From assembly GCA_947630195.1 (NCBI GenBank), contig CANRGQ010000003.1:1-35130 (forward strand): a DNA stretch of 35,130 nucleotides. Direction: 5' to 3'. Shown piece by piece: positions 12,200-18,578 of this stretch. A program made the position numbers and the translations under genes. The notes below the pieces were generated by a model. That model ran no database searches and had not been told where the DNA came from. It was given only the letters and a program-made list of their open reading frames with translations. The stretch's first letter is position 1. Each line of letters starts with the position of its first letter. Source of the stretch: an uncultured Bacilli bacterium (GTDB taxonomy: Bacteria > Bacillota_I > Bacilli_A > RF39 > UBA660).

Positions 12200-12266
12200 A
12201 ATACCAGCCCTCCTTTCTATAAAGAAAGTAGGCAAGTACTCAACAGTTAAGCATTTCCTAACATTA

Positions 12267-12295
12267 ATTATATATCATAATTGAAACTATTACAA
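12267..12295 (-). promoter_or_regulatory. SigA-type promoter of candidate toxin mRNA
   Basis: Minus strand TTGTAA - 17 nt - TATAAT. Confidence 0.6.
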
Positions 12296-12327
12296 GCGAA
12301 CAAATCCTGTTTTTTTTATAAAATAAA

Positions 12328-12349
12328 AAGAGTAAATTCCTTTGCTCTT
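12328..12349 (-). terminator. rpmE terminator
   Basis: AAGAG..CTCTT followed by T-rich tract on the minus strand. Confidence 0.6.
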
Positions 12350-12557
12350 AGTTAGCTTTATCAAAGCCATATTTTTTATTAAATTTTTCAATATTTCCAG
12401 TTTTCTTTGCTTTTCCTTGCGCACCAGTATAGAATGGATGACATTCACTACAAACTTCAACATGAATTTCATCTTTTACTGATTTAGTTTTAAATGTTGC
12501 TCCACAAGCACATTTAACTGTACAATCTTTTAATTCTGGATGAATATTTGCTTTCAT
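12348..12557 (-). CDS. rpmE: 50S ribosomal protein L31 (zinc-binding form)
   Basis: [26 protein letters not shown]...[13 protein letters not shown]. Confidence 0.97.
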
Positions 12558-12630
12558 TATTTCTCTCCCTTCGCCATACTATTCTTATAGTATAGAAACT
12601 TTTTCGTTCTTTAGTATTATACCATATTTT

Positions 12631-12873
12631 TTAAATATCGCAAGACTCTTCCTTAATTTCTTTTTGTGGTTGTCTAATTCTTTTCCGAGAAATGATTTGA
12701 CTTTTTCCGAAATTTTCCTTATCTTTTTCGATATTTTCATCTTCTAGCTCTTCAAAAGACATCTCACTTGGTAAGATTTTGGCTTCATTAATTTTAAATG
12801 CTGCCACTCCCAGTAAAACACTTACTAATAAAACATTAGCCACTAATCTTTCTTTAATACTTATACTATCCAT
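12631..12873 (-). CDS. Hypothetical single-TM protein
   Basis: MDSISIKERLVANVLLVSVLLGVAAFKINEAK; GGTGG SD-like. Confidence 0.55.
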   Translation of the reverse strand: MDSISIKERLVANVLLVSVLLGVAAFKINEAKILPSEMSFEELEDENIEKDKENFGKSQIISRKRIRQPQKEIKEESCDI

Positions 12874-12922
12874 AAAACCACCCGTGCTTAATATCTTAAC
12901 ACATTTGGCATTATTTAACAAC

Positions 12923-16439: not shown

Positions 16440-16472
16440 ACTTTCTATAAATACATAGATTATAAAATTTCG

Positions 16473-16521
16473 GTGCCGGTAATATTTTATATAAATATAT
16501 ATAATATTCTTCTACCGGCAC
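16473..16521. repeat. Large palindromic element (left cassette border)
   Basis: GTGCCGGTA..TACCGGCAC perfect 9-bp arms with inner AATATT/AATATT. Confidence 0.8.
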
Positions 16522-16558: not shown

Positions 16559-17743
16559 TTATGCATTATTCTTAGTTGTGATTCTAAATGGGTCAGTTGC
16601 TGTACCTGCACCCGTTAAATTTATCGCGGATTGAAGATAGAAGACAGGTCGAACCGCATACGCATAGTCGATAAGATACCACCACAAGCCGCCGTTCGTC
16701 TCTACACACCACGCCTCGTAAGTGCTGCCATCTCGGCCCCTGTAGTAGCCATACCTAGACATGGTCCATTCATTTAAAGAATTTCCACTTAATGTTGAAC
16801 TTGTGCTCCATCCATTTTTTACATATAACCAACTACTTGTTCCAGTACTTGCATTATTAAAATCTGTAGCATACATTAAAGCAACTTTATTTGCTGCACT
16901 TTGACTTGTTTTTGGTTCTACTGTTCCTGGTGTACTTGTTTGGTCTGCATTATACCATTTTTGACTTGTTACTATACTGTCCCAATATGTTCCGTTTGGT
17001 TGTTTGTTTTTTATGTTTGTATTATACCATGATGTTACATGACTTTTGGTACTTGATGAATCCCATTTAATATCACTAGTGTAATTACTATACCATACTT
17101 GACTTGTACTAGATGGTGTTGCCTTGATTAATTTTAATTGATCTTTTTTTAATCCTAACGTATTATCATCTGCTGAAGTTATCCCTATTATTCTAAACAT
17201 ATATTTATCTGGTGTTTTTAAACACTCATCTTTATCGGTTGTTCCAAAACATATATAATTATTTGTTACGGCTGTGGTTGTCCCTTTATATCTATACATT
17301 CCATCCACTGCAGAAGTTAAGTTTAATGTTGAACCTTTTGTTTCTTCTAATGCTTGTAATAAAGGTCTACCTTTAGCAAAGTATAAGGTACAATAAATAC
17401 TATTTTTAGTATCTATTGTGGCATGATAAGTTGATAAATCAAAATGCAGTATATTTGTATAATCTATTTCTTTTCCATCACTATCTGTACATTCAGCTCC
17501 CACAAATCCGTGTGTTGTGGGACTTGGCCATGAATCTCTATTATCTGCTTCATGCCATTCATCATCTTCACTATCTTGTACCCATATCGCTATTGATTTA
17601 TCATTACTTAATATATTATTAGTTTCTATTTCTTCTATCTTATTAGGTTTAGTATTTAAAGTTCTTATTATATTATAACTTTCTCCTAATATTAAAATTC
17701 CTACTATAATTATGATTATTGTTAATATTTTATCTTTCTTCAT
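16559..17743 (-). CDS. Membrane-anchored surface protein with putative variable C-type-lectin-like C-terminus
   Basis: 394-aa ORF; N-terminal signal anchor; C-terminal EWTMSRYGYYRGRDGSTYEAWCVETNGGLWWYLIDYAYAVRPVFYLQSAINLTGAGTATDPFRI. Confidence 0.75.
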   Translation of the reverse strand: MKKDKILTIIIIIVGILILGESYNIIRTLNTKPNKIEEIETNNILSNDKSIAIWVQDSEDDEWHEADNRDSWPSPTTHGFVGAECTDSDGKEIDYTNILHFDLSTYHATIDTKNSIYCTLYFAKGRPLLQALEETKGSTLNLTSAVDGMYRYKGTTTAVTNNYICFGTTDKDECLKTPDKYMFRIIGITSADDNTLGLKKDQLKLIKATPSSTSQVWYSNYTSDIKWDSSSTKSHVTSWYNTNIKNKQPNGTYWDSIVTSQKWYNADQTSTPGTVEPKTSQSAANKVALMYATDFNNASTGTSSWLYVKNGWSTSSTLSGNSLNEWTMSRYGYYRGRDGSTYEAWCVETNGGLWWYLIDYAYAVRPVFYLQSAINLTGAGTATDPFRITTKNNA

Positions 17744-17758: not shown

Positions 17759-18578
17759 CTATTTACTAAAGTAGGCATAACAAGTATTTGGCCCAGTAGT
17801 ATCTATATGAAAACCTTTTGATATATCGTATGTAAATGTTGTACTTGCTTTTTTACTTTTACACTCATAATTTGTCATAGAATAACCATCTGGTACTTGA
17901 TTATATAATTTATAAGTTTTGTCATTATATTTTCTATCCCCTGTTGCATCTTCTATATAAGCATAAATAATTACATCTGATAATTTATCTCTATCATAAT
18001 AAAGTCGACATACTACTTGCGTAGGTTTTGCTTTTTCAGTATATTCAATATGAACTGTTCCATCTTCTTTAATAGTATAATTATCATAAGTTGCATCTCC
18101 TCCGGCTGCAGGATAACAATTAGATTTATCTCCATTTATTTGATATCCACTGGCGGGTACATATTTACTCTCTTTATATTTGTTAGCATTATCAGGCATT
18201 TGGGTATAAAAGATTATATTAACATCGGTATTTTTATCTATTGGACCTTGTTTAACTGATTCCCCTTCACCAGCAAAGTTTCCTACTTTGGATGTAAATA
18301 TAGGGACTGGAGCCATTTCATAATTATAGTAAGCATGGGTTTTATTAATTGTCACATTTATTAGTAACAACGCAAAAAATACTAATACGAATATTCCTAA
18401 TATTAGTTCTTTATTTTTTAATTTTTCTTTTATATTATAAAGTTTATCTTTAAAGTTATTTGGTATGAATACTAAAGATATTAAGGTGTTACAATAACCC
18501 CCCCCCGATTTGGGTATTTAGAACTACTAATGTAAGTATTGCTACATATAATACTATTCTTTTAATTTCTTTCTTCAT
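17759..18578 (-). CDS. Membrane-anchored surface protein, frameshifted in this sequence by a G9 tract (putatively phase-variable, OFF)
   Basis: ATG at 18576-18578 with AGAGG SD; G9 at 18498-18506; with G8 the frame reads MKKEIKRIVLYVAILTLVVLNTQIGGGYCNTLISLVFIPNNFKDKLYNIKEKLKNKELILGIFVLVFFALLLINVTINKTHAYYNY... into the 203-aa ORF. Confidence 0.75.
18498..18506. repeat. Homopolymeric C9/G9 tract
   Basis: ccccccccc; the longest G/C homopolymer noticed in this AT-rich window. Confidence 0.95.

Follow-up and report, generated by a model that had tools for sequence, protein, structure and literature searches.

A gene for a variable surface protein in an uncultured Bacilli genome as the probable target of a trans-acting diversity-generating retroelement with many templates and many targets

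Diversity-generating retroelements (DGRs) are usually described as systems with one template and one or a few targets. Remote-target DGRs have been reported from Treponema denticola (PMC4891356) and from cyanobacteria and Trichodesmium, where 18 loci with homology between template (TR) and variable repeat (VR) were found for two reverse transcriptases (RTs) (PMC7517822, PMC8867640). Multi-template DGRs represent a minority: Stenotrophomonas SKA14 has two TRs and six VRs, and the six-template case of P. costantinii is atypical, with few A-to-N changes (PMC6642488). Among the known target domains is DUF6273, to which modelling gave a C-type lectin fold and in which the VR occupies the C-terminal end (PMC10743442, PMC11792537). 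In the BPP-1 DGR reconstituted in E. coli, the template RNA works from its own promoter, and works better than in the operon (PMC12875486).

The window analysed here, a stretch of 35,130 nucleotides, belongs to contig C3 of a 1.17-Mb MAG of a Bacilli bacterium (G000) that is 81% complete. We suggest, with a probability of about 0.9, that a segment at the end of one of its genes is the VR of a chromosomal trans-acting DGR, composed of one RT–Avd pair, at least 11 templates and about 28 targets. As far as can be judged from the sequences, the system is a DGR in a new multi-template, multi-target variant, and it seems that this tiny bacterium reshapes its surface proteins by a programme that spans the genome. 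In the proposed mechanism, the template RNAs, at least 11 in number and each encoded separately, would all be open to reverse transcription by a single RT–Avd complex with misincorporation at adenines. The mutated cDNA would replace the VR in one or another of about 28 paralogous surface-protein genes scattered over the genome, beginning at the shared GCGGTTCGCC end. Since the templates differ in sequence and length, template choice and switching may alter VR length and framework, in addition to the randomisation of adenines.

With the BPP-1 DGR this system shares the homology of RT and Avd, the adenine-specific TR-to-VR differences, the C-terminal VR, the GC-rich 3' end and a structured RNA 3' of the template. 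However, BPP-1 has one template, located in the avd-TR-brt operon, whereas the templates here are numerous, lie apart from one another, possess individual -10-like boxes and terminator-like hairpins, and serve tens of remote targets. As in Treponema denticola, the cyanobacteria and Trichodesmium, the RT would diversify several dispersed paralogous genes in trans, but no dispersed template family was described in those bacteria and they have fewer targets per genome, against about 28–50 targets and at least 11–14 templates in the 1.2–1.4 Mb genomes considered here. Stenotrophomonas SKA14 likewise has more than one template per system, namely two; here there are at least 11 template genes, which are scattered, conserved in structure and maintained across the genus. 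The same Pfam domain and the C-terminal VR are found in the DUF6273 targets of Faecalibacterium phages and gut ‘tentaclins’ (PMC11792537, PMC10743442), although these are phage adhesins or decoration proteins, while the targets described here are membrane-anchored cellular proteins encoded in two-gene operons. A template RNA with its own promoter, engineered in the case of BPP-1 (PMC12875486), is apparently the natural state in this genome, and the activity of the engineered separate template supports the proposed mechanism. In our literature search, where subscription papers and preprints were thinly covered, no published DGR was found to combine tens of targets with a dispersed multigene family of structurally conserved template RNAs having their own promoter- and terminator-like signals.

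The target gene (16,559–17,743, on the minus strand as are the other window genes and their parts described below) encodes a protein of 394 aa with an N-terminal hydrophobic membrane anchor and a C-terminal DUF6273-like variable domain, which ends in EWTMSRYGYYRGRDGSTYEAWCVETNGGLWWYLIDYAYAVRPVFYLQSAINLTGAGTATDPFRITTKNNA. A protein search of the genome revealed about 28 paralogs scattered over many contigs. They have a common frame RYG...AW.V...G.L......AVRPVFYL with hypervariable residues between the fixed positions, as the original prediction, made from the window alone, had assumed for this protein. DUF6273 (PF19789) was matched by 23 of the 46 family members (best E 1.4e-7), the window member being under the threshold; a PDB profile search with the 46 target domains gave no match, and an AlphaFold2 model on the alignment of six targets (pLDDT 43) fell short of the quality needed to confirm a C-type lectin fold. 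A role as a variable ligand-binding surface protein is likely for the targets.

The VR itself, TAGGTATGG...GCGGTTCG (108 nt, 16,650–16,757), is supported by its alignment to the template repeats, by the adenine model and by the localised divergence of the paralogs; it falls inside the broader variable region first proposed (16,559–16,790). At its 3' boundary there is a GC-rich IMH-like end (16,647–16,657), which reads GCGGTTCGACC in the window copy, a C-to-A change relative to the GCGGTTCGCC common to all complete templates and most paralogous VRs. Just 3' of this end the homology shifts, the VRs continuing with CAGTCTTCTAT and the templates with (N)AGCCTTCTATAACTTGA. The C-terminal tail beyond the VR (16,559–16,646) is conserved. 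In 23 paralog pairs chosen at 85% or higher identity over the upstream 150 bp, the mean identity was 89% upstream, 60% in the VR and 82% downstream, the VR background over all pairs being 54%.

The surface-protein ORF with a GC-rich C-terminal end was thus correctly recognised from the window: G+C reaches 63% at 16,680–16,739 and 53–57% at 16,650–16,769, compared with about 25–42% over the 600 bp that lie upstream in the same gene (30% at 16,980–17,039). Such an abrupt jump, from about 30% to 63%, could be taken for a trace of horizontal transfer that has no connection with a DGR. Nevertheless, the same GC-rich frame recurs in about 20 paralogs and in the non-coding templates of the genome and the genus, and the template matches refute this explanation, the chance of which we consider negligible. 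The high G+C content of the VR is explained by the loss of A and by the fixed GCG, GGC and TGG codons of the frame.

Neither an RT nor a template was found within the window, as had been stated before, and the suggestion that the cognate DGR acts in trans or lies outside is borne out by the location of the RT and templates on other contigs. The RVT_1 search revealed three RTs in the genome. The DGR-type RT (L055:2473–3594, contig C4) has the motifs GLPIGNMTSQ and YMDD, and matches a PHROG RT with E 9e-74. Its closest PDB match is the group of entries 8ub7–8ube (E 3.6e-22, the top group II RT having 3e-9), which represent the BPP-1 DGR RT. The start of the RT gene is overlapped by an ORF of 128 aa, which matches the PHROG family ‘Avd protein of DGR’ (E 4e-15), as well as NF033474 DivGenRetAVD (E 2e-8) and PF22296 bAvd (E 2e-6), both below the curated cut-offs. 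As sources of diversity, the group II intron RT on C27 and the retron Ec107-like RT on C28 were ruled out by their family assignment.

The RT–Avd cassette sits between two housekeeping genes. In all four related RT loci examined, the same housekeeping genes, presumably TmcAL-like and MiaA-like as read from their sequences, are located 3' of the cassette, which argues for its vertical inheritance. No phage context was found: a pattern-seeded scan of the IMG/VR viral contigs yielded no relative of the RT, and the template RNA motif had no exact match there.

Upstream of the Avd and RT genes, at C4:1350–1445, there is a non-coding adenine-rich template, TAGGTATGGCTACAACAGCAGCAATGATTGG...GCGGTTCGCC. 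The near-repeat beside an RT gene that had been proposed for a search is therefore present in the genome, differing from the target mainly at adenines and adjoining both the RT and the Avd-like gene. A genome search with this template yielded about ten more copies at 80–87% identity. The repeated element, of about 250 bp, comprises a TATAAT-like -10 box with constant spacing, then GGTAATCTTGATATA and the template, and after it GCGGTTCGCC and a conserved 3' portion that ends in a hairpin and a T-run; a conserved -35 box was sought for the template promoters and not found. In G000 there are at least 11 such elements, nine of them with complete templates; the number is a minimum because the remaining copies are cut by contig ends. 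The covariance search gave 12 matches in this genome, one of which is a relic without a template. Compensatory changes occur in 14 of the 35 pairs that make up the consensus structure of the 3' part, and the paired arms of the terminator-like hairpin vary together (AACGGAG/CTCCGTT, AACGAGG/CCTCGTT, AACGAAG/CTTCGTT, AACAGAG/CTCTGTT). Rfam has no family for this RNA.

Some templates directly follow a target in the same orientation, and others stand alone. Only one template of G000 adjoins the RT, and the window target is on a contig other than that of the RT. A classical cis cassette, in which a single TR lies by the RT and the target within a few kb, was rejected on account of the at least 11 templates and the location of the window target elsewhere. 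Between species the templates are nearly unchanged in several orthologs (94/94, 107/108 and 101/103 positions). At the same time, apparently orthologous template positions on C16 of G000 (L066), C4 of G020 (L197) and C95 of G032 (L200) have different template content, so templates, too, are replaced in the course of evolution, perhaps because homing or recombination also reaches them.

When each VR was aligned with its best single template under neutral scoring, 48% of A were changed against 14–20% of C, G and T, and this only moderate bias probably arises because a VR combines pieces of several templates. The bias came out more sharply in tests on segments. In anchored segments of equal length, 319 of 607 A (53%) and 114 of 962 non-A positions (12%) were changed (p 8e-69, which is only indicative since the positions are non-independent). 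Of the mismatches, 74% fell on A, slightly under the level of 75% or more that is typical for DGR pairs (PMC8144416). A template-switching model with mutable A was better than those with mutable C, G or T by about 18–52 nats in 19 of the 25 VRs of this genome. Degenerate paralogs showed little or no preference for mutable A, the signal being absent from L036, L037 and L041, and they serve as internal controls for the mutation model. With A treated as a wildcard, template segments with at least 10 fixed bases covered 49% of the VR length in three genomes; the share was 12–23% when C, G or T was the wildcard and 5% when the templates were reversed. The best case within this genome, the target on C37 and the template on C12, is strong evidence for the writing of a target by a template from a different contig: over 69 nt, all 47 non-A bases are kept and 11 of the 22 A's are changed.

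These differences bear on the choice between the DGR and gene conversion. In the latter case, paralogs or silent cassettes (pilin- or Vsp-like) would be recombined without reverse transcription, and the dispersed elements would be the donors, which fits the occurrence of partial donor-like copies in many places and the mosaic appearance and variable length of the VRs. Conversion would, however, copy donor bases faithfully, whereas here a donor adenine can become any base and the donor's C, G and T persist; silent-cassette conversion of the pilS/vls type was rejected for the same replacement of adenines. Moreover, the elements bear a conserved RNA structure and a terminator-like hairpin outside the homologous part and track the RT gene across genomes, which makes gene conversion very improbable. 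Cassette recombination, offered as the alternative in the original prediction, does not account by itself for the adenine specificity. Otherwise that prediction has stood, although the at least 11 template elements and about 28 targets could not be foreseen from the window: the RT, the Avd-like gene, the templates and the adenine-biased differences, all in the same genome, agree with its reading of the C-terminus as a DGR variable region, and the proposed comparison of the paralogs ending in AVRPVFYL revealed a strong adenine bias in their differences from the templates. Within the DGR, recombination between templates probably contributes to the mosaics of VR length.

The window VR appears to combine two templates. 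A stretch of 23 nt in its 5' half, GGCCGAGATGGCAGCACTTACGA, coincides except for two A's with the template GGCCGAGATGGCAGCAATTACAA of L197 and L200, which represent two sister species, and TACTACAGG, located just before GGCCGAGATGGCAGCACTTACGA, is similar to the TACAACAGC start of other templates. Such an origin would explain why the window VR is longer than every complete template of its own genome. The template that best explains the 5' half, present in the two sister species, is absent from the assembled G000 (81% complete), and upstream flanks suggest that its orthologous position exists there, on C16, and is now occupied by a different template. Relative to the best single own template, 11 of the 68 non-A positions differ, and these changes, together with the altered base in the IMH-like end, indicate that the window VR may not have been rewritten recently.

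For this reason we considered whether the window VR belongs to a retired target, which drifts or evolves under ordinary diversifying selection while the DGR still works elsewhere. The non-A differences, the C-to-A change in the IMH-like end and the missing template for the 5' half would agree with retirement, as would the three paralogs of the same genome that lack the adenine signal and look retired. Yet for the window VR the adenine model is still ahead of the C, G or T models by 39 nats, its codon frame and GC-rich frame are kept, and neither the RT and the Avd-like gene nor the templates show damage. Retirement of this target is therefore unlikely, although it is the most probable of the rival explanations.

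Besides the diversification of sequences, the target operons may be subject to ON/OFF switching. A homolog of the partner gene is present directly upstream of nearly all targets tested. In the window, this gene (17,759–18,578) carries a poly-G9 tract (18,498–18,506), a putative slipped-strand switch. According to the frame analysis, the frame is open through 272 codons at 8 or 11 G and stops after about 30 codons at 9 or 10 G. As assembled, the gene is in the OFF state, its frame being stopped and a 203-aa ORF left (17,759–18,370). The rule of open (8/11) versus closed (9/10) frames holds in 8 loci. Partner genes of the window and of L030, L033, L034, L039, L041, L049 and L174 have tracts of 9–11 G near their 5' end. 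Seven of the 13 tracts of eight or more G in the genome are located just upstream of targets (binomial p ~7e-9), and all seven obey the rule, with 11 G (open) in L033 and 9 G (closed) in the others; tract length in an assembled MAG is possibly unreliable, which makes the ON/OFF states tentative. These data suggest slipped-strand switching of the target operons, added to the variation of the proteins themselves.

Named relatives of this bacterium are uncultured Bacilli that were sampled in goat rectum or belong to ‘Lapin’ samples. The template RNA is present in 18 of the 38 genomes of the genus. It was detected in 16/16 genomes with an RT homolog, three of which have a broken or fragmentary RT, and in 2/22 genomes without it (p 7e-9). 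The two latter, G014 and G029, have template RNA and targets with no detected RT, which was either lost or is missing from the assembly, unless the templates are orphans. The number of template copies is 13–14 in G020, 11 in G014 and 7–8 in G032, and in G034 four templates are arrayed before the RT. Targets number 49–50 in G020, 36–38 in G032 and about 44 in G034, with 65 matches in G004, some matches in these counts being repeats inside one gene. The median number of targets was 26 with the RT and 7 without it (p 0.001), a comparison biased by the origin of the query from an RT-bearing genome.

In these bacteria the template RNA has turned into a dispersed multigene family, which is kept across the genus in step with the RT and separates the RT–Avd machinery from the template. 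The presence of 30–50 target genes in a gut bacterium of 1.2–1.4 Mb implies that a varied surface is strongly selected for, whether by phage, host IgA or glycans. It is conceivable, at slightly less than an even chance, that one RT–Avd pair, a stand-alone template library, switching during cDNA synthesis, 30–50 lectin-like proteins and poly-G operon switching form a single combinatorial system of surface diversification kept across the genus. If so, it would be the bacterial counterpart to a receptor repertoire, built in three separate layers: template choice, point randomisation and expression choice. The system makes it possible to test which part of the RNA recruits RT–Avd, the covarying 3' part being a natural mutagenesis set, whether the RT switches templates, and how one RT picks among tens of targets. 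It also supplies a naturally occurring blueprint for multiplexing targeted mutagenesis in the laboratory.

Several minor observations concern the neighbourhood of the RTs. Before the Avd-like gene there is an ORF of about 100 aa (L055:1805–2122), which recurs in at least L157 and L158, with a weak match to MutS domain I (Pfam E 0.05). A MutS-like accessory gene of DGRs is known from surveys, and this ORF is possibly its representative. The end of the DGR RT is overlapped by a 95-aa ORF (L055:3581–3865, C4), which occupies the same place in all four related RT loci examined (L155–L158) and has no family match; it is possible that it encodes a new DGR accessory protein. The retron Ec107-like RT (L054:11113–12144, C28 of G000) adjoins an ORF of about 200 aa (12265–12876), and the group II intron RT/maturase (L053:6730–7992, C27 of G000) is located downstream of TraG/VirD4-like conjugation-like genes. 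In the window, about 130 bp past the VR, a long inverted repeat GTGCCGGTA...TACCGGCAC (16,472–16,521) represents a candidate terminator or homing-related stem-loop.
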